This document shows positions 14,954-63,459 of a DNA stretch of 64,000 nucleotides, piece by piece. The notes beneath the pieces were generated by a model that worked only from the letters and a program-made list of their open reading frames with translations, made no database searches and was not told the DNA's origin. The DNA is taken from positions 22,818,991 through 22,882,990 of the forward strand of contig CP136061.1 in NCBI GenBank assembly GCA_032622095.1, in the 5' to 3' direction. Source of the stretch: Siphonodentalium dalli. Its lineage: Eukaryota; Mollusca; Scaphopoda; Gadilida; Siphonodentaliidae. The translations under genes were made by a program, and so were the position numbers. The stretch's first letter is position 1; each line of letters starts with the position of its first letter.

Positions 14954-16589
14954 CAAGCCTGATTAGAGCTGTCATTTGCAGAATGAGGTCCACAGAGTGT
15001 GAATTTAGTGACGCTATCCCGCATAGTGGGCTGGCATCAGCAAATTCAACCTCTGGGGACCTCATTCTGCTTAGGCCTCATCTTCTGTGGAAAGTTTCTT
15101 TATTTTCAAATTTCTATAGAAACTTCTTCACATAGATTCTATTTCTTTTTTTTAGATTAGCATCTCTATATCCCCAAATTGGCAGACGACACATTGCATA
15201 ATCGAGGTTCCCAATGGGTGTACATAACAACATTCACCATTTGGGAACCTCAATCTGAGTGTCTCCCATAGCAGATGAGGCCATGCAGAACAAGAGATGG
15301 ACTGTCGTCCGGTGCATACCCCCTCGTGGCATACCGCCTCGTGTGGGCATATCAATAACTTATGAGGGCTATACTCAGACAGATGGACCCAAACACCAGC
15401 ATTTTCATATAAACAAAGATGAGTAACTATAGAACAATAAAAACAAAACAAACATTTGAATGTGCCATTAAATGTCCTCACAGTGGTGAACATCCATACA
15501 AAATTTCATTGAGATCCGAGCATTACTGTTCAAGTTATGAGCTGAACAGACATTGGATGGACTAAACAACCAACATTTCCAGATAAACTTAGACGAATAA
15601 CTCTAGAATGGAAAAGCAGAACAGAACAATGGAACCTACATCCAGACCAAATTTCATTGAGATCCCAGCACAACTGTTGAAGTTACGACACGAAGAGACA
15701 CCAGATGGACCAAAACCAACATTTCCAGATAAACAAAGATGAATAACTCTAGAATGGAAAATCCGAACAAAACAATGGAACCCTCTTTTTAATGTCCTCA
15801 TAGTAGTGAACATCCAGACCAAAATTTATTGAGATCCCAGCACAACTGTTGAAGTTACGATATGAACAGACACCAGACGGACCAAAAAGCCAACATTTAC
15901 AGATAAATAAAGATGAATAACTCCAGAATGAAAAATCCGAACAAAACAATGGAACACTCTTTTTAATGTCCTCATAGTAGTGAACATCCATACCAAATTT
16001 CATTGAGATCCCAGCACAACTGTTGAAGTTACGACATGAACAGACACCAGACGGACCAAAAAGCCAACATTTCCAGATAAACAAAGATGAATAACTCCAG
16101 AATGGAAAATCCGAACAAAACGATGGAACCCTCTTTTTAATGTCCTCATAGTAGTGAATACCCATACCAAATTTCATTGAGATCCCAGCACAACTGTTGA
16201 AGTTATGACATGAACAGACACCAGACAGACCAAAGATCCAACATTTCAAGATAAACAAAGATGAATAACTCTAGAATGGAAAATCCGAACAAAACGATGT
16301 AACACTCTATTGAATGCCCTCATAGTAATGAACAGCCATACATAATTTCATTGAGATCCGAGCACTACTGTTCAAGTTATGACATGAACAGACATCGGAC
16401 GGACGTACGGAAGCATGCACAGACAGGTGCAAAACAGTATACCCCCCTTTTTTAAAGAAAAAGGGGGTATAATGTCACAAGAGGGTTAATTTGGTAAAAA
16501 GCGCTAGCCCACTATGAGGGAGAGCGTCACTAAATTCACCCTTTGGGGACCTCATTCTGCAAATGACAGGCACACTAAACTAAGGCTTG
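14954..16589. mobile_element. Family B MITE inserted exactly at the exon 7 splice donor
   Basis: The left end CAAGCCTG starts at 14954 and the right end ...AAGGCTTG stops at 16589. The flanks are CACTCACC (14946-14953) and AACTCACC (16590-16597), a 7/8 match. The right flank, read on the minus strand, is the last exonic G plus the donor GTGAGTT of visible exon 7. The target-site duplication therefore includes the host 5' splice site. The element is itself split by the tandem repeat at 15290-16500. Confidence 0.85.
15290..16500. repeat. bivalve-type repeat with about 5.5 tandem units of about 172 bp, nested in family B
   Basis: 'ttcattgagatc' recurs at about 15504, 15652, 15822, 15996, 16168 and 16344, each followed by 'cagcacaactgttgaagtta' and 'agatgaataactc.agaatg' variants. 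It ends with 'gacggacgtacgg' and a 'taccccccttttt...aaaaagggggta' hairpin. The frames it leaves open are incidental. Confidence 0.85.
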
Positions 16590-16596
16590 AACTCAC

Positions 16597-18709: not shown

Positions 18710-18817
18710 CTTAAGATAAGATAAGATATAAGCAAGGCAGATATTTTTTTTTTTAAATGGACAAAGAAAATCTCATTTGGCCAAAAATTCAAGTGTAGAG
18801 TCAGCAAAAACGTCCCT

Positions 18818-23022: not shown

Positions 23023-24076
23023 ACAAACGTCATCGGGAATCAAATGTAATCTGGCATCAAATGTCATCGGGCATCAAATGTCATCGGGAATCAAACGTAA
23101 TCTGGCATCAAATGTCATCGGGCATCAAATGTCATCAGGCATCAAACGTAATCTGGCATCAAATGTCATCGGGCATCAAATGTCATCAGGCATCAAACGT
23201 CATCGGGAATCAAATGTAATCTGGCATCAAATGTCATCGGGCATCAAATGTCATCGGGAATCAAATGTAATCTGGCATCAAATGTCATCGGGCATCAAAT
23301 GTCATCGGGAATCAAACGTAATCTGGCATCAAATGTCATCGGGCATCAAATGTCATCAGGCATCAAACGTAATCTGGCATCAAATGTCATCGGGCATCAA
23401 ATGTCATCGGGCATCAAATGTCATCGGGCATCAAATGTCATCAGGCATCAAATGTCATCAATCATCAAACGTCATCAGGCATCAAATGTAATCTGGCATC
23501 AAATGTCATCGGGCATCAAATGTCATCAGGCATCAAATGTCATCAATCATCAAACGTCATCAGGCATCAAATGTAATCTGGCATCAAACGTAATCTGGCA
23601 TCAAATGCATCAGGCATCAAACGTCATCGGGCATCAAATGTCATCGGGCATCAAATGACATCGGGCATCAAATGACATCGGGCATCAAATGACATCGGGC
23701 ATCAAACGACATCAGGCATAAAACATCATTGGGTATCAAATGTCATCAGGCATCAAACGTCATCAGGCATCAAATGTCATTGGTCATCAAACATTATCGG
23801 GCATTAAACGTCATCGGGCATCAAACATCATCGGGCATCAAACATCGGGCATCAAACATCAGGCATCAATTATCATCGGCATCAAATGTCATCGGGCATC
23901 AAAGATCATCGGGCATAAAAAATCATTGGGCATCAACCGTCATCGGTCATCAAACGTCATCGGGCATCAAATGACATCGGGCATCAAATGTCATCCGGCA
24001 TCAAACGACATCAGGCATCAACATCATTGGGCATCAAACAACACCGGGCATCAAACATCATCGGGCAACAAATGTC
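23023..24076. repeat. 17-bp minisatellite, about 60 units
   Basis: Unit 'catcgggcatcaaatgt' with variants (caggc, gggaat, aatctggc). Because 17 is not a multiple of 3, the open frames cycle every 51 bp. They are repeat artefacts rather than genes. Confidence 0.95.
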
Positions 24077-24116
24077 AATCTCACCTTATTGTTAAAATGA
24101 TATATATTAGTGTTAC

Positions 24117-28393: not shown

Positions 28394-29099
28394 AATTCTC
28401 CTCCCTATTGACAAAAGTATACTGTGATATGTAGTTATAATAGACAGGGTAATTACAAGCTTGTAAGCTCTGACATATGTCAAATTCCAATTGAGTTAAA
28501 ATTCAGTTAATAAAATAAATCCATATGTATGTATTGAAGCACAATAGTCTACTACAGCAAGCCACACCCCACACATCTACTCACCATCTGTTGAGCTAGA
28601 ACACAAGAATATCATTTATAAAAGAACAAACTCCAGTTATATGTTATGGGAGCAGCAGCCCATTTAGTATGGATAAACTGAAGTGCTGCATGTTCAAACA
28701 ACAATAAAAAAAGGTGGAGGAAACTAAAATACTCATTTTATAATATGAAACAGGCTCCCTTTGTGAGCCTTTATTTAGCGGCGGAGAGGCCTGTCATCCC
28801 TTTGTGCATTTGTGTGCTTCGTGCACATTTTGAGCTTTTAAACATTTTTATTTAAAGGGGGACTGTACCCTTAATCCGGCCATTTATGGGACCATCTCCT
28901 TTTATACTTTACAGAATATATGCAACAAATGAATGAATTTGAGTCTTGGATTAGTGCAAAATACACTCATGTGCTCTATGAACGTGAACATTGGTAAACA
29001 TCAAAACATTTAAAATTATCTTTAAAAAAAAACCACATAAATTTTTAACCACAAATTCTATTGATGATATTTTATGTAGAAATATTCTATAATATTTAC
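28394..29099. other. intron, no recognisable feature
   Basis: Unique sequence directly downstream (minus strand) of visible exon 5; nothing else seen. Confidence 0.5.
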
Positions 29100-32000
29100 C
29101 TTCCAACAAGAGTTTTGTCCAATTCTTCATCATCACTAAGATTATCAAGGACCTTAAATTTGATCGACTCTGAGCTCTCATCATGGACTGAGGCATCCGC
29201 GTTTATATCAGTCAGGCTCGCTAATGAGATCGTCTCAAGAGAAATGCTGCTGAAAGGATCTGCGACGGAACTCAAATGCTCAAAGACAGATGTATCAGAA
29301 TAGTCATACTGTCGCGATTTCTCCAGTGATGAAAATGACGACACCTGGAATGCACCAATGTCAACGCTAGATCCAGATTCGTTCCCGCTAGCTGATGATT
29401 CATCCCCAGACACCTGGAATGCACCAACATCCAGGCTAGATTCAGTTTCGGTCCTGCTAGCTGATGATTCATCTCCAGACATTGCGCTACTTATTTTTTC
29501 CACTGCATACTGTGCTGATGCAGTGCATGGACTTGATATACACGATATATCTGTTTGTCTGTCACTGCTCTTCTCCAAGGCTGAGAATGATGATACGTGA
29601 AGTCTGTCATCATCTAGACTGCTCGACACTGAGGAGTATTTTCTGATGGAGGAACTATATTCAGAATCAACATGGCTGAGATCCGAGTGAGTGTAGCTTA
29701 TATCTGACTGTCTGCTTCCCTCATTTGACTGAATGTTGCTTGAATATGACTGATTTCTGCTCATAGTGTGACTTTTGACTATCTGAGTGCTGTTTATATC
29801 TGACTGGGATTTCTTTTTATCTAACTGACTGTGGCATGTTGAGTTATGAGATAGACTGAACATTTGTGAACTGACTCTGGATGCAATCTTTTGCATAGCT
29901 TCGCAATGCAATACATGTTCAGTTTCATCAGGCAAACTGTTAGATTCTGGATCAACTACATGTGTAACTGAATGTTCCTGGGAAGTGATTGCACTCAGTG
30001 TTGATTGTGTGGTACAAGGAGAAATGAGTGGATGCTCAAAGAGATGTACACTATCTTCTTGTTCACAATTCCCTCCCTTTGGTCCTGAAGTGGAGGATTC
30101 CCAATTTTGGCTGCCTGAATTTGAGTCCACCGATTGTGAGTCCACCGATTGTGAGTCCACCGATTGTGAGTCTGCTGATTGTGAGTCCACCGATTGTGAG
30201 TCTGCTGATTGTGAGTCCACCGATTGTGAGTCTGCTGATTGTGAGTCCACCGATTGTGAGTCCACCGATTGTGAGTCTGCTGATTGTGAGTCCACCGATT
30301 GTGAGTCCACCGATTGTGAGTCCACCGATTGTGAGTCTGCTGATTGTGAGTCCACCGATTGTGAGTCTGCTGATTGTGAGTCCACCGATTGTGAGTCCAC
30401 CGATTGTGAGTCTGCTGATTGTGAGTCCACCGATTGTGAGTCCACCGATTGTGAGTCCACCGATTGTGAGTCTGCTGATTGTGAGTCCACCGATTGTGAG
30501 TCTGCTGATTGTGAGTCCACCGATTGTGAGTCTGCTGATTGTGATTCAAACACAGATGAATGTTCTTCTGAAGAGAAGATACTCAACGATTGTGAATGAG
30601 CAGCATAGCTATCTAGCTGGCTAGAGTTCTGCGGACTTGTTATTGGTACTGCACTGGAGGAATCCCTATTTCGGCTGCCTGACTGTGAGTGAGGCACTGA
30701 TGAACGCTCCTCAGACGACATGAGACTCACTGCTGGCTGTGAGTGACCACCATTGTTATCCAGCTGGTTAGATTTCTGAGAACTATCCATGTATTGACTA
30801 CTTCTTTCCAGGTCAGAGGAAGGTATGGAACTAATACCAGTTTTCTCCTTCACAATTACATCTCCACTTTTTGGATGAGTAATATTCGCTTTTTCCACAA
30901 CTAATGAACTGAGCTCATCGTAAAAATCATTTATGACCTCATCAATGTGTTTCTCGATTCCATTTTCAGGAATGACTTCTTGTTTGGAAGGTCGGTTGTT
31001 ATCATGCAGAGGTACCACTTCAACCTTGGCATCAACCACTTGGCTGGAAGTTCGACTGTCATTATACGGAGGTACCACATCGGCCTTATTAGTAACATCT
31101 TGGTTGGCAGGTTGCTTGGTACCAATAAGCTCAAGGTTGGTAAATTGCTTAATGCCAATGACAGGTTGGTTGTCATTATGTTGAGGTAGCACATCACCCT
31201 TAGTATTCATGACCACTTGGTTGGCAGTTTGATTAGTGACGATGACCTCTTGGTTAGAAGGTTGGTTGTGTTGAGTTAGCACATATTCCTTAGAATTCAC
31301 ACTTTCTTGGTTGACAGGTTGCTTAGAGACGATGACCTCTTGGTTGGAAGGTTGTTTGTCATTATGTTGATGTAGAACATCACCCTTAGTATTCATGACC
31401 TCTTTGTTGGCAGGTTGTTTAGTGCCGATGAATTCCTGGTTGGCAGGTTGCTCAGTGCTGATTACGTCCTGGTTGCCAGGTTGATTAGTGCCGATGTCTT
31501 TCTGCATGGCAGGTTGCTTTGTGCCAATCACTTCCTGGTTGGCTGGTTGCTTAGTGCCGATGACCTCCTGGTTGACAGGTGGCATAGTGTTGACGACTTC
31601 CTGGTTGGCAGGTTGCTTAGTGCCGATGACCTCCTGGTTGGCAGGTGGCATAGTGTTGATGACCTCCTGGTTGGCAGGTTGCTTAGTGCCGATGACCTCC
31701 TGGTTGGCAGGTGGCATAGTGTTGATGACTTCCTGGTTGACAGGTTTCTTAATGATGATGACCTCATGGTTGGCAGGTTGCTTAGTGCCGATGACTTCCT
31801 GGTTGACAGGTTTCTTAATGATGATGACCTCCTGGTTGGCAGGTTGCTTAGTGCCGATAACAGCCTGATTGGCAGGTTGCTTAGTGACGATGACTTCCTG
31901 GTTGACAGGTTTCTTAATGATGATGACCTCATGGTTGGCAGGTTGCTTAGTGCCGATGACAGCCTGATTGGCAGGTTGCTTAGTGCCGATGACAGCCTGA

Positions 32001-32613
32001 TTGGCAGGTTGCTTATTGCCGATGACAGCCTGGTTGGCAGGTTGCTTAGTGATGATGATGTCTTGGTTGGAAGGGTGACTCTCAAGAGGAGGTACCACAT
32101 CAACATGAGTACTGACAGCATCTTGGTTGGCAGATTGGTTGTCACTGTAACGAGGTCGCTTGTCAGGTTTAGTATTTAGGATATCTTGGTTGGCAGGTTG
32201 CCTTCCATCGTGTAGGGGTAGCGAAACGTTCTTGGTCATCTCAGGGTTGGTAGGTTTATCAGTACTGATGACACCTTGGTTAGAAAGTTGAGTGTCAGTA
32301 CGTGGAGGTAGCACACCAGACTTAGTATCGATGAGCAGTTGGTCAGCAGATTGGCCATCATTAGGTGAAGGCTGTACATCAGGCTTGAAACTGAGCGACC
32401 GTTCACTGAGTGACCGTTCACTGAGCAATGGCTGAACCTCAGAGTAAAAATCCTTCAGTGCATTCTCTATTTTCTTTTCTTTCAATCGTAATTTGGTCCC
32501 AGAGATCACCTTCGTCTGACATTTAGGCCTGCTGATATCATCACCCTGATATTCTCCGCCGTAAGACTTCAAAAACTCTGGCACAGATTTACATGACTCC
32601 GTCACATCTGCAC
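29100..32613 (-). CDS. giant gene, visible exon 5 (1,170 codons, repeat-rich)
   Basis: Bounded by acceptor ATGCTTACAG|GT (phase 1, matching exon 4) and donor GTTGGAAG|GTAAAT (phase 2, matching exon 6). It starts ADVTESCKSVPEFLKSYGG. It then has about 20 units of an 11-residue repeat (NQEVIGTKQPA and variants; 33-bp DNA unit, about 31430-32050). Next come 28 units of SQSVD/SQSAD (15-bp unit, about 30124-30543) and a late duplicated block (GDESSAS...VGAFQVS). It ends DEELDKTLVG plus a split codon. The composition (Q, S, N, P) predicts disorder. No catalytic motif is seen. The many open frames on the opposite strand are shadows of the repeats. Confidence 0.88.
30124..30543 (-). repeat. 15-bp coding minisatellite (SQSVD/SQSAD), 28 units
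   Basis: On the plus strand the units are 'gagtccaccgattgt' (V type) or 'gagtctgctgattgt' (A type), 18 and 10 copies by eye. In plus-strand order the units read VVVAVAVAVVA, then VVVAVAVVA, then VVVAVAVA, a higher-order repeat. Within each type the units are almost identical. Confidence 0.92.
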
Positions 32614-32644
32614 CTGTAAGCATAGAACTAATTTTTTAACAAAT

Positions 32645-32930
32645 TGCTATTCATGTTGGCAATATTGAAATAATTTATAAACATATCTATTTTTTGGTTG
32701 ACATTATTGAACTAATTTGTGAACATATATAATTTCATGTTAACAATATTCAACTAGTTTATGATCATATTTATTTTCATGTTAACAATATTCAACTAGT
32801 TTATGATCATATTTATTTTCATGTTAACAATATTCAACTAATTTGTGAACATATTTATTTCATGTTGACAATATCGAACTAATTTGTGAACATGTTTATT
32901 TTCATGTTGACAATATTAAACTAATTATTT
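32645..32930. repeat. intronic minisatellite, unit about 46 bp
   Basis: Units of 'ttcatgttnacaatattnaa' plus 'ctantttntganatatt...' repeat about six times immediately upstream (minus strand) of the exon 5 acceptor. Confidence 0.8.
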
Positions 32931-33271
32931 GTAATTCTCGTTTGCAAATCTAGCTCTCTGACGAGTAAAATAATTTCATGGTTTGTGATACGTCAAATAC
33001 GTAACTCAGGTCTGGGTGATGAATCAGGTTAATTAGGTTTGAGAAACAATTTAAATTTTTGGCTATTATGGAGATCAGTTTCAATGAAGTGAAAAAGAAA
33101 CAACTTCCATATCATTTCAGCTCCATTAAGATTTTTGCTCAATGTCCAAGATTACGTATACATAGTATATATAGGCAATTGTGGGAAAATAAAAGGCAAA
33201 AAAGTTTAACAATTTGTTACCATTCTCTTATTTGGCAGACACTCTTTATGGGAAATATAATGAATAATGAC
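32931..33271. other. no recognisable feature
   Basis: Unique AT-rich intron; a 75-codon plus-strand frame is unsupported. Confidence 0.45.
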
Positions 33272-34138
33272 CAAGCCTTAACATAGAGTGTCAGTCATTG
33301 GCATATTGAGGTCCTCAGAGGGTGAATTTATTGACGCTACCATGCAGTGGGCTAGCATAACCAAATTCACAATCTGGGGACCTCATTCTGCTTAGGCCTC
33401 AAATGCTATGGGAGACTGTGATCAGATTGAAGCTCCCCAGTTGAAGTTGGTGATGTTCCCAATTAGTCACCTTGATAATGCAATTTATCTTTTACAGAAT
33501 TAGGGGATATATAAACTGAACAGAAGGGGAAAAGTAACTAACAAGAGCTAGGGCGTGGCAAAATATGCCATTTAGCCATTTTGAATTGTCCTACAGCAAA
33601 ATAAAATAAAACTTTGAGCTTACATTTGAAAAATATCTGATATACCCCTAATTTCAATGCACAAATGCGGTAAAATTCAAAGTTGAAAAATGGCTGTAAC
33701 TCATGTGAAAATAATTAAACAGAACCTTTATTTGAACTTGGCCTGTAGTTTTAGCTGGGAAATACACATACCAGCTTTGGTTCAGATCAAATAATCAAAA
33801 CTGGAGTTATCGGTCGGAAACTGAAACGTTATGAAATTGGTCAAATTCTAAGTTGAAAAAGTGCCGTAACTCATGTAAAAATAATTGGACGGAACCCATA
33901 TTCAAACTTGACCTGTATCTTTAGCTGGGAAATACAAGCACCAACTTTGGTTCAGATCAAATATACCAAACTGGAGTTACCGATCGGAAACCAAAAATGT
34001 TAATGGATAGACTGACGGACGGCCAGATGAAAAAGGGAGTATAAAAACAATATTAATTTACGCGGGGGGGGGCATCACTAAATTTACTCTCTGGTAATCT
34101 CATTCTGCAAATGTACGGCACCTTGTTCTCAGGCCAGG
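33272..34138. mobile_element. Family B MITE interrupted by a bivalve-type repeat
   Basis: The left end 'caagccttaacatagagtgt' and right end 'ccttgttctcaggccag' are diverged. The interior is split at about 33541-34058 by a two-unit repeat with 'gctgtaactcatgtgaaaat' and 'gtatctttagctgggaaata', ending 'gactgacggacggcc' plus poly-G. Confidence 0.75.
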
Positions 34139-34150
34139 TCAGAGACTTTT

Positions 34151-34426
34151 ACCCTTTATATACTAAATGGATTCTCCCATTCAGTTATAGAAGTATACAT
34201 TGAACTAGTCTATTATTTATTTTGAGGGATGCTCATGTAATAAAAACAGACACCAGACAGAAAAACAGATGATACAACAGCAGAATTATCCATTATTCAT
34301 TGGTGGGAAATGTTCAGATAATAAGCTCAACAAACGGCCTATGTTCATTTGTTTGTTGAATTTATAATCTGAATAATCCTTAAGGGAACTTCTCATCAAT
34401 GAATATTTAGTATAGAAAGCATTAAC
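34151..34426. mobile_element. T4 family TTAA MITE (copy 3)
   Basis: 'taccctttatatactaaatg' ... 'gaatatttagtatagaaagc' + ATTAA. It shares its right TTAA with the adjacent T1 element. Confidence 0.7.
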
Positions 34427-34821
34427 CCTTTACCCAACAAACCAGCCAAAACCGGCCAAATAAAGCTTCAACAGCCTAAAATATCTTCGGTCTGTCTCAA
34501 TAGAACCATACAAATATGGGTATCATTGGAACCGGCTCCTTGACCACATTGTGATAGTTACAGTTATGCCCTGTGCCAATGCATTCTCTTATATATGCGA
34601 GTCGACCATAGGTCGCCTCGCATATATAAGAGAATGCATTGGCCTAAAAAAAATCTTTTTTTAACACTTTTTACCATTTTTTCTTACATTCTTTAACAAT
34701 TTTATAATTTTTAATGTGTTAAGCCAATGCATTCTCTTATATATGCGAGGCGACCTATGGTCGACTCGCATATCTAAGAGAATGCATTGGCACAGGGCCC
34801 ATCTGTTGGGTAAAGGGTTAA
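34423..34821. mobile_element. T1 family TTAA MITE (copy 2)
   Basis: TTAA-CCCTTTACCCAACA ... TGTTGGGTAAAGGG-TTAA with both 69-bp palindromes. It lies 28-82 bp downstream of the three exon 4 donors. Confidence 0.92.
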
Positions 34822-34844
34822 AATAGTCTCAAGTATAAAGTGAG

Positions 34845-34906
34845 ATTACCTGAGAACTGATATAAAGTGAGATTACCTGAGAACTGATATAAAGTGAGAT
34901 TACCTG
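34845..34906 (-). promoter_or_regulatory. three tandem identical 5' splice sites
   Basis: A 27-bp unit containing TTCTCAG|GTAATC is present three times, giving donors after 34904, 34877 and 34850. The spacing is nine codons (GNLTLYQFS added per step), so all three keep the frame into exon 5. Confidence 0.75.
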
Positions 34907-36772
34907 AGAACTGATATTGCTTGTCAAGTTTGTACCATGCAGGAAATGCTGCCGGACCAATAACTGTGTCGGCAGAGTGAGATGATGCCGGACCAATAAC
35001 TGTGTCGGCAGAGTGAGATGCTGCCGGACCAATAACTGTGTCGGCAGAGTGAGATGCTGTCGGACCAATAACTGTGTCGGCAGATTGAGATGCTGCCGGA
35101 CCAATAACTGTGTCGGCAGATTGAGATTTATCACAGGCTGGTAAGTCTGTTATGTAATTCACAGTATTGATAGTGGGACCGTCCTTCATAACAGAGTCTC
35201 CTCCGTCTTCATCACGATGCAACGCTTCCTCGTCTGGTGTCTGCTGCAGATCATACTTCAAACTTTTTCGTGTATCTCCCTCCAAACTCATTGTGCACTC
35301 TTCACTGAATGATGTCGTCCGCTTCTCAGTCGGTGTAATAGTTGGACTTTCTGGATTATATAGAATATGTTTCTGTTTCAACCAACTCGGAATAGAACCA
35401 ACTTTAGTAAATTCATCAGTGGAGAAAATGCTGTCCTGAAAATCCCATGCAGATTTACCATGTGGACTTTGAGGTGGTCTTTCCGAATCAGATTGGACAC
35501 ATATCTCCTCCAATTGCTTCACAGGCTTACTAGAATCAATGGTTGATTCCTTTGTTTGTTCATCATCGAATACATTATCAGATATCTGTATATCCTCTCC
35601 CGATCCTGAACCCTGACCTTTTGCTGCATTGAATTCTGGGATACCTCCCACAGGGCAGACTTCCAGTGAGATTTCCCTCGAGATCTCAGATTGGCCATCA
35701 AATATCTGATGTAGCTGAATTTCCTCTCTGGTTCCGGAACGCTGACCTTTTTCTGCATTGCATTCTGGGATACCTCCTACAGGGCTGCCTTCCAATGAGA
35801 TTTCCCTCGAGCTCTGATTGTTGCTATCACTCAGGGAGTAACTAACGAGTTTGATGACTGGATCGCTCCTAAACTCAGCCTCATTCATCTCTGAATCACT
35901 CATAATCTCAGCCTCACTCACCTCAATTTTGGATGAAATTTCTTCAGTAACCTCGAAATCAGGTTTAGTATGGCTCAGAATAGTCCGTTTCCCTCCAGAT
36001 TTAATTGGAGATATGTCTGTGATTAACGATGATATGTTGGCGCCAGGAGAATACATTATAGCTGCAGGATTAGCATGGCTCAAAATAGTCTGTTTCCCTC
36101 CAGATTTAATTGGAGATATGTCTGTGATTAACGATGATATGTTGGCACCAGGAGAATACATTATATCTGCAGGATTAGCATGGCTCAAAATAGTATGTTT
36201 CCCTCCAGATTTAATTGGAGATATGTCTGTGATTAACGATGATATGTTGGCACCAGGAGAATACATTATATCTGCAGGATTAGCATGGCTCAAAATAGTC
36301 TGTTTCCCTCCAGATTTAATTGGAGATATGTCTGTGATTAACGATGATATGTTGGCACCAGGAGAATACATTATATCTGCAGGATTAGCATGGCTCAGAA
36401 TAGTCTGTTTAGCAGGATTAACACCGCATACAACAGTCGGTTTCCCTCCAGATTTAATAGGATATATGTCCGTGATTAACGATATGTCGGCACCAGGGGA
36501 ATACAATATATCTGCTTGATTTGGTTTGGGAGTATCAGGAGTTGACAGAATGTTTTTATTTTGTTCAGCATATGGATGAGATGCTTCATTCAATGTCAGT
36601 TTTTCCTCATTTGTGTCAGAATTGTTTTCTTCTGCTGGTGGTGTAACAATAGCTTGTTGAGTAGCTGAGTCATCGAGAGCAATCCGTTCCTGACTTTTTG
36701 TATCCTCTTCATCATTGTTGGCAGTACTTATTTTAGCTCCCTCTTTTCTGAGTTTTGAAACATCCAGTTTCC
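34904..36772 (-). CDS. giant gene, visible exon 4 (repeat-rich)
   Basis: Acceptor ATATTACAG|GG (phase 1) and donor TTCTCAG|GTAATC (phase 1); 622 codons, starting KLDVSKLRKEGAK. It has about five copies of a 35-residue unit containing PADIMYSPGANISSLITD and SPIKSGGK (105-bp DNA unit, about 35980-36500). It also has five copies of a 12-residue unit ADTVIGPAASQS near the end (36-bp unit, about 34930-35125). The rest is acidic and serine-rich. 'SPIKSGGK' and 'SPGANISS' could be proline-directed phosphosites; this is only inference. Two further identical donors follow in tandem (ends 34877 and 34850), each adding nine codons in frame. Confidence 0.86.
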
Positions 36773-37529
36773 CTGTAATATAAAACACAAAATTAAACTG
36801 ATGTCAGAATTGGAAATGTGTTCTTTCCATACATATTTTGGAAATATTTATCGATATGATTCAAATATAGATTGAGCAATCATATGGAAGGGATATTTTT
36901 TATAAATTCGATCAATTTACTTAACAGTATAGACTTCTCAACAGAGCAGGCAAAAAACGTCACTGTAAGCATACAAATGGAATAACGAGAGGCCGAACAC
37001 GATCGACGGATGTTTAACCCATATCTTGCCGACAGTAAATAGCTATGATCGGGATCATAATCTAGAGTTTTATATGTTGAATTATAGAGTATTCTGAACA
37101 TTATGTACTAAAGAAGTACATGTAAAGACAAATGTACATAATAACACAAGTTCTCAAATTATTGGAATATATGGGTCCCAGTGCCAATTTTGCAAAAAGA
37201 ACTCTCATCGGCTATTAATCAGCCTGGGCAAAATTCCGAGTCTGCCGATGTTTTGTGCAAAATTGAAACAAATTGCTGAAGGCATTGTTTTAATGTTGAA
37301 CTGCGAAATTCTACAGAGAGCAAAAATTCTACTGATAACAAGGACTACTGAGATAACAAGGATTATATTACTAATCAGAAATTAAAAACCAGACCCAACA
37401 AAAGTTTGCCATGAATGGCATGATAATGGACCAAGTTCCAATTGTAAACTAAAGTTATAACTGTAGAACTATGTGGATCCTAGGCTTTTTTGCCGAGAAT
37501 AATTTCTGGTATAGGAACATTTCTGCTAA
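36773..37529. other. intron, no recognisable feature
   Basis: Unique AT-rich DNA. Confidence 0.5.
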
Positions 37530-37630
37530 TTAACCCTTTCAGTGCCAAGTCCGATTTTTGCATCAACCCATATTTCCTTGATCATTTTATTGATTTTATT
37601 GATTCCTTGATCATTTTATTGATTATAATA

Positions 37631-39042
37631 CAGTGAAAACTGCAATTTACGACCACTGTCGTGACCGACCAACTGTCTTTTCCGACCAAATTCCTTTTGT
37701 ACGGACACTTTTCGCTATATAAACGACCTGCCGTGAGCGACATCCTGTCTTACGCGACCACCGGTCGGTATATCGCGGCAAAAACATAAATATTTACTTG
37801 TTATGAACGACCAATTCCATCGAAAAAGTAAAACTTTAAATGCACAAACTTATGTACTTTTATTCCCCGTTCTGAACCCCCGAGTCTGTCAGTGTTAGAT
37901 GCGCGTGAGGGTATTAGTTTCACATGTCAATTTAGGTTACCGGATATTTAAAGAGGTGAGAATTGCCCGCTGGTGATTAAGAATGTATGAATAGAAGACA
38001 CTTGAGGGTCATTTGGTAGATAAAAGGGTTTATGTAAGCAGTTAATTATGGAGTCACTTTGGCCTCGAGAATGGATTCATTGTTTACACTTCGCAGACGC
38101 ACGTCTGGAATTGTATTGTTTTACTTATAATCTGCGGAAAGCTTAAAATCACCTCGGCTTGTATTACGTGGGCTTCTTCTACCTATATAGGTTCATAGAC
38201 CGCAATGTCACAGTTATATTTCCAAATCTTTATGTCCACTGAGACAGCCGTAGAAGAAAGACAATTGTCAGTGAAACCTGCAGCTCAACCAAAGTTAGAC
38301 AAGTTCTTTCTTGTCAAGCAATAACATTGTGGCAAAATTATTAATGTGTGTGAATAGCTGACCAGTTTAATTGTGTTTATAATCAAAGGGGAAATACTCT
38401 ATTTTTTAATGAATCTAATTCCCCCCTGTTGTGTTCCCCAATCAGTTGCTAAGAAACAACCTTGACCTTTGTCAAAATGTACCGGTGTTCTGATCACCAG
38501 CGGAAAAACCAGTTTTCTCTTGGAATATTTTATTGATTTCTCCCACTATACTTACCCAAATCATAGCTTGGATCGTTTGTTAGGGATTCATATTTATTAA
38601 ACAAAAGATACAACAAAATGTTACATTAAATTAACTTGTTTCAATGCTCAATTAGTGAATTTAGTTCCAAAGTTTCTTCCTTCTGACGAAGTTCTGTCAC
38701 GTGCCCGACGAGTTATCTGGTCAGCTGTTCTATCGTATTATTTTATTTAACATGCATATACCTGTATAATACTCTGTTTTTGTTATTATTGTTGATATTA
38801 AGTATATCTTATTCAAGATTAAACATAAGTATAACACATATAATCTCCATTATTTTCAACCAGTGGGTATCACTCATGATATAAAAAAAAAATCTACAAG
38901 TGCAGACATCAGATTCAGATACAACCATAGACACATCCTACACTGATACATAAATAGGTCAAACCCGTCGTCGCCGACCACTTGTCATGAACGACCATTT
39001 ATCCTTGGCAAAATGGGTGGTCTCTCATAACAGTTTTCACTG
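37631..39042 (+). mobile_element. Tigger/pogo-like DNA transposon, internally deleted
   Basis: Ends CAGTGAAAACTG ... CAGTTTTCACTG at TA dinucleotides, with 'aacgacca'-type subterminal repeats typical of pogo/Tigger. Most of the transposase is gone; only its C-terminal tail is recognisable (38226-38324). Confidence 0.82.
38226..38324 (+). pseudogene. Tigger/pogo transposase C-terminal tail with PIP-box-like motif
   Basis: The in-frame tail ...VEERQLSVKPAAQPKLDKFF ends a few residues later at TAA. QPKLDKFF fits the PCNA-interacting consensus Qxx(L/I/M)xx(F/Y)(F/Y), known at the C-terminus of pogo transposase. The DDE catalytic region and DNA-binding domain are absent, so this is a remnant. Confidence 0.65.
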
Positions 39043-39210
39043 TAATGTGATAAATTGATGGATAGAGCTCTAAGAGCTCATTCCGTCAATGTATCACATT
39101 ATTATAATCAATAAATTTGAAAAATGATCAAGGAAATATGGGTTGATACAAAAATTCGGACTTGGCACTGAAAGGGTTAAGAGGGCTGCTATTATAACAA
39201 AGATATTCAC

Positions 39211-40251
39211 CACTATGAGCTGCGACAACTCCACAACTAGGTTGCTCACTGATTGGTTGCTCACTGAGCAATATTTGTATGAGATCAGAGTGATCTACAC
39301 CCAAGGCTTCTGAAAGCCCCGCCCAAATTGACTCTCCGTGCTGATGACGAACTGCTGCTTCCAGATAATTGGTCTGCGACTTGATATTTTTCTGCGTATG
39401 TTCCGTAAGCCCGCCTCTGAATTCCTTCATATGATGATCAACAGAAGCTTCTAAATAGTTGGTCTTCGGTTTGGGACTTTTCGGTGAATGTTCTGTGCGT
39501 AATGCTTCTGTAAGCCTGCCCCGTATTTCCTCTAGATTATGACGAATGGATGCCTCTAGGTAGTTAGTCTTAGGTTTGGAACTTTTCTTTGAATCATCAG
39601 GACCCAATGCTTCAGCAATCCTGCCGCGTAGTTCCTCTAAATGATGACGATTTGATGCTTCCAGGTAATTGGTCTTAGGTTTGGGACTTTTAATCCAATC
39701 GTTTGCCTGACTTCCGTGTGAATGATCGACGCTATTCTGAGAAGAGTTCTGGCTAAAGTCAGTTAGCAGAACATTAGGAGAGGATTCACTGACTATTGAA
39801 GCTCTCTCGTATGAGTGAGATGAGTGAGACTCGGAATAACTCGTGTCCATCAGTGAATACTCGTCATACCCACTCTGATCAGGTGATGCTATATCGTCCA
39901 CTATTTCCTGATGATAGTGTACTTTTGCATCTTTTTCCACTGCTTTATGCAAAGAATTTTCTGTACTAACATCCTTTAGTTCATTCCTTGGAACAGGGTT
40001 CTCATTTTTGTTAGTTGCATCTCCAACTACTCGGTTCTTTGCGTCACTTGATGTTATGTTACATTCAACAGAATTTTCGTTGACGTTATCCATGGTTGAT
40101 TGCGCCTCATAATTGGAGATGATTATGAATTCTTCTTGATCAACTTTAACTATTTTTCTCTCTGTCTTTCTGAAGTCCATTCTCTTCCTGACGTTGCTCG
40201 ATTTTGGAGTAAGTGTCGGTTTGCTCTTCTTATCAGACTCATTGCCACTGG
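39211..40251 (-). CDS. giant gene, visible exon 3
   Basis: Acceptor CATCTTTTCAG|CC (phase 1, matching exon 2) and donor CATAGTG|GTGAAT (phase 1, matching exon 4); 346 codons, starting SGNESDKKSKPTLTPKSSN. After a basic start (RKRMDFRKTERKIVKV) there is an acidic serine-rich middle. Then come four repeats of about 36 residues built on KPKTNYLEAS..HHLEELRG and a following AEALG segment. These repeats look amphipathic helical. No enzyme motif is seen. Confidence 0.86.
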
Positions 40252-41703: not shown

Positions 41704-41721
41704 ACGACAAGTACAGTAAAT

Positions 41722-41938
41722 TACTGTAATGCCCTAAGTAATCGACTCCTTAACCACAGCAGAATTATGGGTAACTTTTCAGGATTTAGCCCGAAATATG
41801 GCTTGTTGGCATTCATCGGAAAGCTCTTAGTGAGAGCTTTCCGATGAATGGCAACAAGCCATATTTCCGACTAAATCCTGAAAAGTTACCCATAATTCTG
41901 CTGTGGTTAAGGAGTCTATTACTTAGGGCATTACTGTA
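41722..41938. mobile_element. Family A foldback MITE (copy 8)
   Basis: Hairpin from 'tactgtaatgccctaagtaa' to 'ttacttagggcattactgta', loop near 41830; inserted just outside the right duplication of the family B element. Confidence 0.9.
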
Positions 41939-48074: not shown

Positions 48075-48485
48075 GACTGCCAGGGTCAAATTACTTTCTG
48101 TACAAATCTTCAACTCTGATGGTCCAGCTGTTTCTGTATAAACAATCAGTAGATCTATAAAAGCCAATTGCGACAGCCTTTCAGGTTTGACACTGTGTCG
48201 CTAGTAGTCCCCCATGTGACATCACATGAAGGAAGATTAATGACTCAGACTGCATAATCCATAATGTAATATTCAATCACATGAATCGCCATAACTTCAG
48301 TTATGGGGGGCTATCACAAAAATATTTTCGGCAATGTGCTCAGTGGAGTAGCGGGCATCGATATTGACTGAGAAAAATTACACCGGTGTAATCCTTTAAT
48401 ATCTCAATTATTCTCATTGTCCCATGCTATTATGAATGATAGAATGGTTTAAACACAATTTGATGGGGCAGGTTTTAAACAACAG

Positions 48486-50345
48486 GTTGAAAAACTCAAA
48501 TGCTGAAATAGCACAAGTACTCAACAACCAATTCCAGTCTGTATTCTCTCCACTAAATCCTCTTTCACTCACACAGAACTGTCTGACAGCCATACGAAAT
48601 TCCACGTCTGAAGAGTACATCCAATCAAATTATAGGTATCCAACTATCAAGCAAATTAAGGTGGATGAATCTGGAGTCATTAACCAACTTGCAAATCTCA
48701 AAATCAACAAGGCTGCTGGACCAGATAATATAAACCTTACCATCTTAAAAGAACTTCGGTATGAAATAACACCAGCCTTAACTTTGCTCATCCAGAAAAC
48801 ACTTGACACCGGGTCGCTACCAACTGACTGGACTACAGGCAATGTTGCACCTATATTTAAGAAAGGTGATAGAGCTGACCCCTCTAACTATCGACCAATC
48901 ACTTTAACATGCATCATGTGCAAAATTACCGAACATATCATTGCTTCTCACATAACCAACCATATTACAAAACACAACATACTGTATGACTTACAACATG
49001 GTTTCCGTGAAAGTCGGTCACAGCTTATCCAACTGACTGATGATCTAGTTGAAAAACTCTTCAAAGGCCACCAAACTGACATTATACTTTTGGACTTTAG
49101 TAAAGCCTTTGACAAAGTCAACCATGCAAAACTAATATATAAACTTAATGAATATGAAATCAGAGGCCCAATCTTAAACTGGATAAGATCGTTCTTACAT
49201 GGCCGCAGCCAGCTTGTTGTGTTGGAAGGGGAAAGCTCCTCTACTGTCCCGGTTATTTCAGGGGTACCCCAGGGCTCTGTCCTAGGTCCCCTGTTGTTCC
49301 TACTATACATAAATGATCTCCCAAACCATATCACATCCCAGACCAGACTTTTTGCCGATGACACAGCCGTTTACTTGACCATCAATAACCCTTCTGATAA
49401 CAATACCCTACAAAATGATCTGCTCAAATTGGAAGAATGGGAAAAGAAACGGGACATGTCCTTCAACCCAGGAAAATGCCAGGAATTAACCGTAACTCGG
49501 AAGAAACACCCATCCTACCACCAGTACATCTTACATGGGCAAATTCTACAACAGGTCAGCTCAGCCCGATATCTTGGAGTTGACTAAACTAACAACATGT
49601 CCTTCAAAGAACACATAAACAGGATAACATCAAATGCCAACCAAACTCTCGGCTTTCTCAAGAGAAACATAAAAACATAAAATGAAATGATCAAGAAAAT
49701 AGCTTATCAAGCTATGGTGAGATCCAAGTTAGAGTATGAGGCTTGTGTCTGGTCAGCTTATACAGCCACAAATATTGATGAAATTGAGAAAGTACAGAAT
49801 AGGGCTGTAAGATGGATCAAAAATGAATATTCAAGATATGAAAGTGTTTCAGCCATGACATCAGACCTAAATTTAAAATCATTAGTATCTAGAAGGACCA
49901 TCTCACAACTGTGTCTCTTTCAAAAAACCATACATAACCATGTAGCAATGCAAATTCCATCCTATCTTGAGAAACCGACTAGAAAAATGCGATACCACCA
50001 TGAGGGAACATTCTGCCACATTCACACAGGCTCAAATTATTTCAGATTCTCATTCTTTCCGGCAACTGCAATTCTTTGGATCAGTCTAAATCCCGACCAG
50101 ATCACACTCTCCGATCCTGACACATTCAGGAAGAGTGTGTATCAGTAAATCACATAACTGGCTCATATCTGATAATTCTTTTAACTTGATGTTTTTAAAC
50201 TATTTTAAATTCTCCTCTGTAACATAAATCTAAAGCTCAACTATTCTATCTCTCAATATTCTCCTTTCTGTTTCTCATGTTAACCTACTTGCACAGACGA
50301 GCACCGGACATAATCTCCGAAAGGAGGTCTCCAGATCTGCAGATA
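48486..50345 (+). pseudogene. 5'-truncated LINE reverse transcriptase (Jockey/CR1-like group), broken
   Basis: A plus-strand frame from about 48486 encodes the reverse transcriptase core: NKAAGPDNI, DPSNYRPITLT, QHGFRESRSQ, LLDFSKAFDKVNH, SGVPQGSVLGPLLFLLYIND and the catalytic FADDTAVY, then the post-RT thumb region. An in-frame TAA follows 'RYLGVD' (49585-49587) and another follows 'RNIKT' (49678-49680). The second part (49687-50148) carries 'MVRSKLEYEACVWS' and 'KVQNRAVRWI', typical of the C-terminal region of this LINE group. The endonuclease region is absent (5' truncation). A short (AGAT)n-like tail lies near 50335. These features indicate a dead copy. Confidence 0.88.
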
Positions 50346-55612: not shown

Positions 55613-56002
55613 TAAAAATGACATCTATTAATTTTGTGAAATATCAAAAGTTATTACGTATCGTCAGCTGAACAATATTATAAGAATAAAATATTTTCTT
55701 TGTGAGGCTTTTTCTTGTGTAGGTAGGGAGTAGGCAAACAAACTTTTTTAAATTTTGGCCTAAAATTGGCATCATAAGGAAAACAAAGGAGGCTTATAGG
55801 TTATACTATATCTGCGGGCGCCATTTCATAACTAAATGGTTTGACTAACAAGTGGTGTGTTAAAACGACTGAATAAATTCTGAGAAATCAAGAAGTCCTT
55901 GTTCTGTGATTATTTCACGGAGTTTGATTTGTGAAATTACAAAAAACTGCTGTGATTTAGGATTTAAATTCACTTCCTAGAATTTGGAATTTTGATATCA
56001 AA
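55613..56002. other. upstream region of the nAChR-like gene
   Basis: No clear promoter element. It ends with 'gatatcaaaatg', giving the receptor's first ATG. Confidence 0.4.
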
Positions 56003-57216
56003 ATGTTGTTATTCGCTATTATCTTGATTTTATTTATTCCATACATTTTGACGAAGAAAACACAGCATGAACTTCTATATGAACACATTATAGCTGGAAA
56101 TAACAAGAAAGCTATACCCGTAGAAGAAGGACGCACAGTCGTTGAGGTTGAGATTGCATTTAATTTGATGAAAATTTTGAGACTTGATGAGATTCAACAA
56201 ACTTTGTGGACAGTTGGTTTTCTCGAACTTGGATGGAAGGACATTTCTTCACAGTGGAACCCAACAGATTATGGAAACATCTCAGAAATTGTGCTCCTGG
56301 CAGAAGATGTCTGGCTACCGGGCATCTATCTGATCAACTCTCATGGACAAATGCTTGGCCTCAATGATAAAAATTCAAAGTTGAATGTTAAAAGTGACGG
56401 AAGAATCTTGTGGTTTCCAGGAGGGACAATCCAGAGTGACTGTAATGTTGACATATCTTACTTCCCATTCGACCAGCAGAAATGTAAACTGGTGTTTGAA
56501 GATTGGATGTATGGGTCTGGGGCATTTCATACTAAATTCAAGAAGCTAAATAACGATCGTGATCTGTGTATCTTATCAGATAACAGTAACTGGGATATGA
56601 TTGGTTGCATTGAAGATCATTTTTACTACATTCGTAATTTAACTTTGTTTGTAGCAGAAATTACTTTGAATTACTGAACACCATTCTTCCATTGGTCGTG
56701 CTTAGCTTTATGAGCATGTTCAGTTTCAAAATTCCAGTACACTGTGGTGAAAGAATCTCCTATGCCATCACCGTACTCTTATCTTTCACAATAATTATGA
56801 ACTTCATATCATCAATTCTACCGGCCAATGGAGATAATATATGCTACCTGGAAGTGTACATAACTCTGATGCTTTGCTACAGTGCTGCCTCTGCGATTTT
56901 GACAATAACAAGTTGCAATATTGAAAAGGCCAGCAAAACAGTGCTCCGCATATATGCCTGCATTACACAAGTAAGAATGCCAGAATGTGAAGACGATGAT
57001 GCTGATAATAAGGGAACAGAATGTGAGGAAGATATCTTAAGAAAGAAGTGGTTTGATACGCTCCATGAAAAACTCGACTCAGTTTTCTTCAAAATGGCTC
57101 TTGTTTTGTTCCTAATGACATCTGGCATATTTGTTATTATTTTCTATTTGGCTCATAATTCACACATGGACAAGCCAGATACACTCATATGTGAACCTTG
57201 TAAAGGCATAAAATAG
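56003..57216 (+). pseudogene. nicotinic acetylcholine receptor-like subunit, intronless, one frameshift
   Basis: Cys-loop ligand-gated channel subunit, normally a pentameric plasma-membrane cation channel. The first frame (56003-56677, 224 codons) has a hydrophobic leader (MLLFAIILILFIPYIL), loop A-like WLPGIYLINS, loop B-like ILWFPGG, and the Cys-loop Cys147-Cys161 around DISYFPFD. Just before M1 the frame shifts by one base (around 56650; 'TLFV' should continue 'SRNYFELLNTILP'). The second frame (from 56692 to the stop at 57214-57216) carries the rest of M1, M2 (ERISYAITVLLSF), M3 (VYITLMLCYSAASAILT), a short cytoplasmic loop and M4 (FKMALVLFLMTSGIFVIIF). The vicinal cysteine pair of alpha subunits is absent (single Cys202). 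It is intronless and antisense inside the giant gene's intron, which suggests a retrocopy. The single lesion makes it a recent pseudogene or an assembly error. Confidence 0.85.
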
Positions 57217-59500: not shown

Positions 59501-59529
59501 GTAGCCCATGCTAATGGAAATTGTTGACA

Positions 59530-59972
59530 AAATTCTGCTGTGGTTAAGAGGTCGATTAACCCTTTACCCAACAAACCGGCCAAAACCGGCCAAATAAAGC
59601 TGCAACAGCCTAAATTATCTCGGGTCTGTCTCAATAAAACGATACAAATATGGATATCATTGGAACCGGCTCATTGACCACATTGTGATGGTTACAGTTA
59701 TGCCCTGTGCCAATGCATTCTCTTATATATGCGAGTCGACCATAGGTCGCCTCGCATATATAAGAGAATGCATTGGCCTAAAAAAAATCTTTTTTTAACA
59801 CTTTTTACCATTTTTTCTTACATTCTTTAACAATTTTATAATTTTTAATGTGTTAAGCCAATGCATTCTCTTATATATGCGAGGCGACCTATGGTCGACT
59901 CGCATATATAAGAGAATGCATTGGCACAGGGCCCTTCTGTTGGGTAAAGGGTTAATTAGAGCATTACTGTAT
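59530..59972. mobile_element. Family A right arm interrupted by a T1 element
   Basis: 'aattctgctgtggttaagag' + 'gtcga', then T1 (59556-59955), then 'ttagagcattactgta'. The last bases of this MITE abut, and are included in, the zinc-finger satellite monomer. Confidence 0.85.
59556..59955. mobile_element. T1 family TTAA MITE (copy 5)
   Basis: TTAA-CCCTTTACCCAACA ... TGTTGGGTAAAGGG-TTAA with both palindromic modules. Confidence 0.92.
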
Positions 59973-62900
59973 GTGTGACTTACCTTGTGTTTAATACTGT
60001 GCATGTGGTCATTATAAGGGATAATCCCGGAACACAGTACATTACTGTATGTGTGACTTACCTTGTGTTTAATACTGTGCATGTGGTCATTATAAGGGAT
60101 AATCCCGGAACACAGTACATTACTGTATGTGTGACTTACCTTGTGTTTAATACTGTGCATGTGGTCATTATAAGGGATAATCCCGGAACACAGTACATTA
60201 CTGTATGTGTGACTTACCTTGTGTTTAATACTGTGCATGTGGTCATTATAAGGGATAATCCCGGAACACAGTACATTACTGTATGTGTGACTTACCTTGT
60301 GTTTAATACTGTGCATGTGGTCATTATAAGGGATAATCCCGAAACACAGTACTGTATGTGTGACTTACCTTGTGTTTAATACTGTGCATGTGGTCATTAT
60401 AAGGGATAATCCCGGAACACAGTACATTACTGTATGTGTGACTTACCTTGTGTTTAATACTGTGCATGTGGTCATTATAAGGGATAATCCCGGAACACAG
60501 TACATTACTGTATGTGTGACTTACCTTGTGTTTAATACTGTGCATGTGGTCATTATAAGGGATAATCCCGGAACACAGTACATTACTGTATGTGTGACTT
60601 ACCTTGTGTTTAATACTGTGCATGTGGTCATTATAAGGGATAATCCCGGAACACAGTACATTACTGTATGTGTGACTTACCTTGTGTTTAATACTGTGCA
60701 TGTGGTCATTATAAGGGATAATCCCGGAACACAGTACATTACTGTATGTGTGACTTACCTTGTGTTTAATACTGTGCATGTGGTCATTATAAGGGATAAT
60801 CCCGAAACACAGTACTGTATGTGTGACTTACCTTGTGTTTAATACTGTGCATGTGGTCATTATAAGGGATAATCCCGGAACACAGTACATTACTGTATGT
60901 GTGACTTACCTTGTGTTTAATACTGTGCATGTGGTCATTATAAGGGATAATCCCGGAACACAGTACATTACTGTATGTGTGACTTACCTTGTGTTTAATA
61001 CTGTGCATGTGGTCATTATAAGGGATAATCCCGAAACACAGTACTGTATGTGTGACTTACCTTGTGTTTAATACTGTGCATGTGGTCATTATAAGGGATA
61101 ATCCCGGAACACAGTACATTACTGTATGTGTGACTTACCTTGTGTTTAATACTGTGCATGTGGTCATTATAAGGGATAATCCCGGAACACAGTACATTAC
61201 TGTATGTGTGACTTACCTTGTGTTTAATACTGTGCATGTGGTCATTATAAGGGATAATCCCGGAACACAGTACATTACTGTATGTGTGACTTACCTTGTG
61301 TTTAATACTGTGCATGTGGTCATTATAAGGGATAATCCCGGAACACAGTACATTACTGTATGTGTGACTTACCTTGTGTTTAATACTGTGCATGTGGTCA
61401 TTATAAGGGATAATCCCGGAACACAGTACATTACTGTATGTGTGACTTACCTTGTGTTTAATACTGTGCATGTGGTCATTATAAGGGATAATCATTACTG
61501 TATGTGTGACTTACCTTGTGTTTAATACTGTGCATGTGGTCATTATAAGGGATAATCCCGGAACACAGTACTGTATGTGTGACTTACCTTGTGTTTAATA
61601 CTGTGCATGTGGTCATTATAAGGGATAATCCCGGAACACAGTACATTACTGTATGTGTGACTTACCTTGTGTTTAATACTGTGCATGTGGTCATTATAAG
61701 GGATAATCCCGGAACACAGTACATTACTGTATGTGTGACTTACCTTGTGTTTAATACTGTGCATGTGGTCATTATAAGGGATAATCCCGGAACACAGTAC
61801 ATTACTGTATGTGTGACTTACCTTGTGTTTAATACTGTGCATGTGGTCATTATAAGGGATAATCATTACTGTATGTGTGACTTACCTTGTGTTTAATACT
61901 GTGCATGTGGTCATTATAAGGGATAATCCCGGAACACAGTACATTACTGTATGTGTGACTTACCTTGTGTTTAATACTGTGCATGTGGTCATTATAAGGG
62001 ATAATCCCGGAACACAGTACATTACTGTATGTGTGACTTACCTTGTGTTTAATACTGTGCATGTGGTCATTATAAGGGATAATCCCGGAACACAGTACAT
62101 TACTGTATGTGTGACTTACCTTGTGTTTAATACTGTGCATGTGGTCATTATAAGGGATAATCATTACTGTATGTGTGACTTACCTTGTGTTTAATACTGT
62201 GCATGTGGTCATTATAAGGGATAATCCCGGAACACAGTACTGTATGTGTGACTTACCTTGTGTTTAATACTGTGCATGTGGTCATTATAAGGGATAATCC
62301 CGGAACACAGTACATTACTGTATGTGTGACTTACCTTGTGTTTAATACTGTGCATGTGGTCATTATAAGGGATAATCCCGGAACACAGTACATTACTGTA
62401 TGTGTGACTTACCTTGTGTTTAATACTGTGCATGTGGTCATTATAAGGGATAATCCCGGAACACAGTACATTACTGTATGTGTGACTTACCTTGTGTTTA
62501 ATACTGTGCATGTGGTCATTATAAGGGATAATCATTACTGTATGTGTGACTTACCTTGTGTTTAATACTGTGCATGTGGTCATTATAAGGGATAATCATT
62601 ACTGTATGTGTGACTTACCTTGTGTTTAATACTGTGCATGTGGTCATTATAAGGGATAATCATTACTGTATGTGTGACTTACCTTGTGTTTAATACTGTG
62701 CATGTGGTCATTATAAGGGATAATCCCGGAACACAGTACATTACTGTATGTGTGACTTACCTTGTGTTTAATACTGTGCATGTGGTCATTATAAGGGATA
62801 ATCATTACTGTATGTGTGACTTACCTTGTGTTTAATACTGTGCATGTGGTCATTATAAGGGATAATCATTACTGTATGTGTGACTTACCTTGTGTTTAAT

Positions 62901-63357
62901 ACTGTGCATGTGGTCATTATAAGGGATAATCATTACTGTATGTGTGACTTACCTTGTGTTTAATACTGTGCATGTGGTCATTATAAGGGATAATCATTAC
63001 TGTATGTGTGACTTACCTTGTGTTTAATACTGTGCATGTGGTCATTATAAGGGATAATCCCGGAACACAGTACATTACTGTATGTGTGACTTACCTTGTG
63101 TTTAATACTGTGCATGTGGTCATTATAAGGGATAATCATTACTGTATGTGTGACTTACCTTGTGTTTAATACTGTGCATGTGGTCATTATAAGGGATAAT
63201 CCCGGAACACAGTACATTACTGTATGTGTGACTTACCTTGTGTTTAATACTGTGCATGTGGTCATTATAAGGGATAATCATTACTGTATGTGTGACTTAC
63301 CTTGTGTTTAATACTGTGCATGTGGTCATTATAAGGGATAATCCCGGAACACAGTAC
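59964..63357 (-). repeat. tandem array of a partial zinc-finger exon plus its splice donor, about 46 copies
   Basis: The main unit is 78 bp, with 73-bp and 64-bp variants. Read on the minus strand it is: the 3' end of exon 1 (coding VLCSGIIPYNDHMHSIKHK), donor AAG|GTAAGT, CACACA, then TACAGTAAT, which matches the tip of the adjacent family A MITE. The rightmost unit is the genuine exon end. The 78-bp unit equals 26 codons, so long open frames exist on both strands. Each unit keeps the two His ligands but lacks the two Cys ligands. Units are virtually identical, indicating recent expansion or strong homogenisation. Confidence 0.93.
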
Positions 63358-63459
63358 TTTACATCGATCACAGTAGAAGCTATCTGGTAACTTCTTGCGA
63401 TTTTTCATCATACTTGAGATACTCTTGTGCATCCCACTTTCATTGTGGACGTTGAAAAC
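63301..63459 (-). CDS. giant gene, visible exon 1: U1/matrin-type C2H2 zinc finger
   Basis: A 159-base exon of 53 codons, phase 0 at both ends, with a plausible acceptor TTTATCAAG|GTTTTC and a perfect donor ACAAG|GTAAGT. The peptide starts VFNVHNESGMHKSISSMMKN. It contains FYCDRCKVLCSG...NDHMHSIKHK with Cys-x2-Cys-x12-His-x5-His, the spacing of U1C/JAZ/matrin-type fingers, which often bind RNA or double-stranded RNA. No start methionine is evident; upstream exons should lie right of the window. Its 3' part is the source of the adjoining 59.97-63.36 kb array. Confidence 0.82.

Follow-up and report, generated by a model that had tools for sequence, protein, structure and literature searches.

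The window, by which we mean the whole 64-kb stretch of DNA that was analysed, contains near its right end a tandem array on the minus strand. This array abuts a candidate exon with mixed coding evidence on one side and runs into a mobile-element terminus on the other. From right to left, the features of this locus are as follows.

63301-63459, minus strand: candidate exon of 159 bases (53 codons), an open frame with one putative U1/matrin-type finger
63301-63356, minus strand: exon part of the monomer at its native place, corresponding to the last 56 exon bases (blast)
63267-63265, minus strand: TAA, the first in-frame stop if the array is retained
59962-63300, minus strand: array of 45 inter-donor units and a terminal intron piece, with 46 donors including the native one at 63300
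59972-59983, minus strand: GTAAGTCACACA, the apparently native part of the monomer's intron sequence (12 bases, including the GTAAGT of the donor), as seen in the terminal copy
59970-59971, minus strand: TA, presumed target site of a MITE; a TA lies at this place in 15 of the 17 other termini kept
59952-59969, minus strand: 18 bases of MITE terminal inverted repeat, of which 59962-59969 (CAGTAATG) lie within the monomer
59556-59955, no strand assigned: nested element with TTAA at both ends and termini CCCTTTACCCAAC, within the MITE terminus
59528-59558, minus strand: continuation of the MITE terminus beyond the nested element, about 30 bases

The donor 15-mer AAACACAAG|GTAAGT (as one word, AAACACAAGGTAAGT) occurs in 46 exact copies on the minus strand, and the first intron base of these donors runs from 63300, the native position, down to 59983. 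TRF called an array at 59962-63362. Both results bear out the preliminary description, which had reported a satellite of about 46 copies of an exon end and its donor. The strict donor pattern MAGGTRAGT was found only twice outside the array when both strands of the window were counted. The 45 donor-to-donor spacings comprise 28 of 78 bases, 12 of 64 bases and five of 73 bases, and as none exceeds 78 bases there is no room for a hidden copy with an altered donor. All 78-mers are identical to each other, and so are the 64-mers. At the unit junction, 14 bases of the 78-mer are absent from the 64-mer and five from the 73-mer, and the sole type of substitution among the units is a C-to-T change seen in three of the five 73-mers. 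The array thus shows no more than three kinds of change, none of which hits the donor, and every unit carries a consensus donor, as would be expected of an IFI6-like minisatellite that supplies multiple splice donors. With approximately 3.3 kb of near-identical tandem sequence, the array is not a product of chance. The 30-base core of the unit gave no exact match in viral_contigs and genome_contigs, and neither Rfam at gathering scores nor ARAGORN found anything. A hairpin in the monomer as cause of the array was rejected, as folding of the DNA was unremarkable (z -0.28 and -0.54). Two other tandem arrays of the window are one of 53 bases x 16.6 that starts at its left edge (1-882) and one of 17 bases x 62.5 (23024-24077).

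The monomer had been described as 57 exon bases, the donor and 12 intron bases. The exon end and the donor stand, while the 78-mer in fact consists of 56 exon bases (57 if one shared G is counted) and 22 intron bases. Twelve of the latter are apparently native, and the other ten are TA and the eight MITE bases CAGTAATG, the end of a dispersed mobile element, so that the exon part is followed by GTAAGTCACACA, TA and CAGTAATG in this order. In a blast comparison, 63279-63357 and 59962-60040 were 100% identical over 79 bases. The edges of the array are one-sided: the exon part continues at the right edge only, into the frame that completes the finger FYCDRCKVLCSGIIPYNDHMHSIKHK, and the intron part continues into other sequence at the left edge only. 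As the complete finger is present once, at the right edge, the array would have grown from the exon end into the downstream intron, just as had been proposed. The tip of a mobile element, the end of a probable exon and its splice signal are hence present in about 46 successive copies in an apparent animal genome.

At the left edge the sequence continues as TA-CAGTAATGCTCTAATTAA, which is identical at 20 of 20 positions to the element ends at 10810 and 20674. These belong to a MITE family with seven two-ended copies of 162-222 bases within the window, which combines terminal inverted repeats, TA flanks and several copies, as is characteristic of MITEs with a TA target site. We take it to be of the Tc1/mariner kind, a type name given from the target site. 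The 18 termini compared, that is 17 and the one at the array, were hand-picked from 24 blast rows; short internal matches near 6568, 9196, 34274, 55962 and 59558 and a duplicated terminus at 11064 were left out. The two termini without TA on their outer side are those at 20890 and 52146. At the array only one end of the MITE copy is seen. Its terminus is interrupted by the nested element, which starts with TTAA at 59955-59952, has its far-side TTAA near 59556 and presumably is of the piggyBac kind, again named from the target site. Relatives of the nested element lie at about 6.6-7.0, 34.4-34.8 and 42.6-43.0 kb, with partial ones at 46.4 and 47.8-48.1 kb. Past 59528-59558, the interior of the MITE copy is unlike that of the seven two-ended copies, and blast within the window did not find the far end. 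MITE sequence accounts for eight of the 78 bases of the monomer (ten with the TA), and this is not a MITE-derived satellite. As every 78- and 64-mer contains the eight terminal MITE bases, which had been missed before, the MITE most likely predates the amplification, which is therefore placed after the insertion.

Two further observations concern these element families. TTAA-type elements are nested in two copies of the TA-type MITE (6428-6980 and 59528-59969), at different TTAA sites. At 41712-41731, two inverted pieces that resemble termini lie at a MITE end (TACAGTAAATTACTGTAATG) and may be a footprint.

The candidate exon 63301-63459 would be in phase 0 at both ends. Its 3' end reads AAG|GTAAGT, and its candidate acceptor, ...TTTATCAAG|G, was read by eye. 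We consider it quite likely, by judgement, that this is a coding exon. The opposing reading, that finger and donor are a coincidence or a dead exon and that the array is an ordinary minisatellite beside a MITE, is in our view unlikely, and the evidence bears on both sides. In translation, the spacing of the finger is exactly C-x2-C-x12-H-x5-H, which is the spacing of the U1/matrin-type zinc finger (zf-met). The top Pfam family was likewise zf-met, matched over the whole model (25 of 25 positions), the E-value being 0.01 when the finger was searched by itself and 0.075 with the exon. Moreover, the frame is open from phase 0 to phase 0, compared to about 4% of non-coding stretches of 159 bases, and a strict donor, of which only two others exist outside the array, follows directly after the finger. 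These points argue against a coincidence. In favour of it, the zf-met scores of 12.9, 13.8 and 16.6 bits lie below the curated Pfam cut-off of 21.2, and membership of the candidate finger in this family is thus not asserted; a working U1-type finger exon is likely but not proven. Two of ten open frames used as controls also attained an E-value of 0.1, with unrelated Pfam families, and a loose C2H2 pattern occurs once more, inside a reverse transcriptase frame. A match of three consecutive half-finger units to an unrelated bacterial family (E 0.0007) is a warning about such E-values for repeats.

At -5.7 bits, the codon score of the candidate exon is not coding-like: 91 of 93 coding windows lie above it, and 23 of 94 non-coding windows free of stops reach its level. 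The codon model is weak either way; it was trained on five of seven segments after two out-of-frame segments had been dropped, these comprise few proteins of biased composition, and the 93 'coding' windows were not kept apart from the training data, with stop-free windows of the dropped segments perhaps among them. A single-sequence AlphaFold2 model has low confidence (mean pLDDT 50.6), which also fits a non-exon; it shows two strands and no helix, where a zf-met finger would have a beta-beta-alpha fold. PDB searches gave no convincing match. The best ones, a PHD finger protein (E 0.23) and a phospholipase A2 (E 0.24), are taken as chance, and a U4/U6.U5 23 kDa protein appeared at E 0.26 and 0.56. 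The U1/matrin-type finger exon proposed earlier is favoured by spacing, open frame and donor, and not by family score and codon usage.

The frame speaks against a coding role of the array. Directly after the exon comes a unit of 64 bases, and for this reason retention of the array would lead to the TAA at 63267-63265 after 11 codons past the exon (VSHTYSNDYPL*). Since 17 of the 45 units (those of 64 and 73 bases) are not a multiple of three and break the frame, no coding constraint is seen in the array. The frame is not kept from the exon through the units, as it would be in a coding tandem repeat, and the open frames within the array, on both strands, are pieces between frame breaks. Two claims of the preliminary description fall with this result. 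The 26-codon unit does not stay open, as only 28 of the 45 units have 26 codons and the stop comes after 11; and intron retention would not append a series of half-fingers, as 45 of the 46 donors would include the stop and the native one at 63300 alone is free of it. An open half-finger tail is ruled out for this allele, in which the stop precedes every array donor. Transcripts that use one of the other 45 donors or retain the array would be cut short and probably degraded.

A second, smaller repeat of an exon end lies elsewhere in the window.

34834-34917, minus strand: second exon-end repeat, a 27-base unit x 3.1 with the donor CTCAG|GTAATC (TRF)

The first intron base would be 34903, 34876 or 34849. 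The repeat ends a minus-strand open stretch of about 1.9 kb with an acceptor-like start, and a TTAA-type element begins about 13 bases downstream of it. Spliced to the acceptor of the next candidate exon, near 32.6 kb, the three donors all yield stop-free frames, of 1794, 1803 or 1812 codons depending on the donor; any of them would be harmless because 27 is a multiple of three. A common strand is the one link established between this repeat and the finger exon, and two exon ends in arrays are not by themselves improbable given that tandem arrays occupy 19% of the window, or 14% if the main array is not counted. The surrounding region (29099-40250) contains minus-strand open stretches that have splice-like ends and abound in coding minisatellites, of 15, 33, 36 and 105 bases. 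One junction was tested there and is in frame, and no Pfam family exceeded the cut-off in these open stretches. Further coding features of the window are a retroelement reverse transcriptase domain (48436-49584), a neurotransmitter-gated ion channel whose ligand-binding and membrane parts lie in two overlapping frames, by either a frameshift or a short intron (55961-57213), and a 730-codon minus-strand open frame rich in arginine and serine (16583-18772), with MSSELEDGEIRTATSG near its start and a weak CASC3/Barentsz match under the cut-off.

The arrangement of the main array suggests a sequence of events. A TA-type MITE would have inserted 12 bases downstream of the donor of the probable finger exon, followed by tandem duplication of a 78-base segment made up of 56 exon bases, the donor, 12 intron bases (which include the GTAAGT of the donor), TA and eight MITE bases. 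Read by eye, the MITE end ...CAGTAATG passes into TACTGTG of the exon at the junction, where the two have one base in common; the breakpoint would accordingly have had about one base of homology, and the event was therefore not a duplication between long repeats. Unequal exchange or slippage, together with local homogenisation, may then have raised the number of extra units to 45, and two deletion forms of 64 and 73 bases presumably arose within the array and spread. The order of the units fits this, as all 12 64-mers lie within the first 26 of the 45 places at the exon end, a clustering that was as extreme in three of 200000 shuffles (the test was picked after the order had been seen), and the substituted 73-mers lie at the far end. 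Later growth thus looks local. Block duplication finds no support in the unit order, since the longest repeated block, of nine units, was attained in 1045 of 5000 shuffles. The near identity of the units means recent growth or strong homogenisation. The exon-proximal donor at 63300 would give the normal product, and the array would mostly be removed with the intron.

Taken as a whole, we give a probability of roughly two in three to this explanation, in which a MITE insertion and the amplification of an exon end produced a young and mainly passive intronic satellite with a splicing liability. It is supported by the monomer, which has the order exon, donor, intron and MITE; by the edges, the whole exon being confined to one and the continuing MITE terminus to the other; by units that are identical save for two length forms and one substitution; by the clustering of the 64-mers, as local exchange would give; and by the stop that 45 of 46 donors would include and the 17 of 45 units that break the frame. 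Against it are the weak Pfam and codon scores of the exon, a repeated unit block no longer than in shuffles and the missing far end of the MITE. In addition, among identical competing donors the one nearest the acceptor is preferred, which would favour distal copies of the array.

Compatible with this explanation, and concerning its first step only, is the proposal that the MITE end itself triggered the duplication by aberrant transposase cutting or repair at the terminus. The monomer does end eight bases inside the terminus, and at 11016-11078 another terminus of this MITE family is covered, along with its flank, by a 31-base tandem duplication. We nevertheless find this proposal distinctly unlikely: the break does not fall on the expected cut site, and arrays and termini overlap in two of 40 cases compared to 2.3-2.4 expected under random placement of the same arrays, an absence of excess by which MITE ends as duplication hotspots were rejected. 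For this count, 89 TRF rows were merged by hand into 40 arrays and a one-base run at 4182 was left out.

It would be rather surprising if the array were an active decoy, whose additional donors recruit U1 in competition with the native one and whose copy number tunes the truncated share, making it a length-dependent poison switch on the gene. Such a role would agree with the strong donor AAGGTAAGT retained in 46 copies, with no spacing that could hide an altered one, and with the 45 of 46 donors that lead to a stop. The IFI6 minisatellite shows that repeat donors are usable, as far as its summary in PMC4526556 goes. However, an array as young as this would be expected to have intact donors in any case, and because it contains only three kinds of change, none of them on the donor, the intact donors of all 46 copies are no sign of selection. 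Closely related, and to be regarded as slender speculation, is a splicing rheostat in which each added donor raises the share of stop-bearing transcripts, so that array length, which unequal exchange can change quickly, sets the output of the putative zinc-finger gene. On this view, the 27-base repeat at 34.8 kb with its in-frame donors would be a permissive form of the same process. That the assembler made the copy number or order is very improbable, as repeating one stretch would not produce units of three lengths whose order is non-periodic and graded along the array, even though near-perfect repeats are a classic source of error.

How the spliceosome picks among identical donors is an old question that is usually studied with few engineered copies. 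The present locus places 46 identical natural donors, at 64-78-base spacing, after one probable exon, and a stop/no-stop readout separates the first donor from all others. The locus also displays an order of events, with the insertion of a mobile element beside a donor and then growth of the intron from the exon end.

The closest known system is the minisatellite of the human gene IFI6 (6-16, G1P3) with its multiple splice donor sites (Turri, Cuin and Porter 1995, as cited in PMC4526556). According to that citing text, two downstream repeat units are used as donors and three mRNA species result. Both systems have tandem repeat units that carry splice donors, those of our array being candidates for use; unlike IFI6 as summarised there, the array has 46 copies, a mobile-element end in the unit and a stop that 45 of 46 donors would include. 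In human genes that lie in segmental duplications, internal tandem repeats at the boundaries of exons and introns, on average 30-base units x 4 over 160 bases, can change splicing (PMC2812944). They resemble the array as minisatellites at such boundaries, the splicing effect being theirs, and the passages of that paper considered here mention no mobile-element end. Reviews describe both repeats and satellites associated with MITEs. Tandem repeats tied to a MITE are represented by Xstir and miDNA4 of Xenopus (PMC12628747), in which, from the portions consulted, the repeats lie inside the element, whereas our unit is mostly host exon and intron with eight MITE bases. Tandem genomic duplication within a gene also affects intron structure in the potato RdRp gene, where the excerpt describes intron gain (PMC4974935); in contrast, each unit of our array brings another 5' splice site and makes an intron that already exists longer, and no new intron is shown. 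Among the matches listed from the open-licence PMC literature, in the parts available, a satellite of exon end, donor and MITE end is not described. The array combines such features, having a large copy number, a monomer of host and MITE sequence and a first unit that breaks the frame; use of its donors is not claimed.
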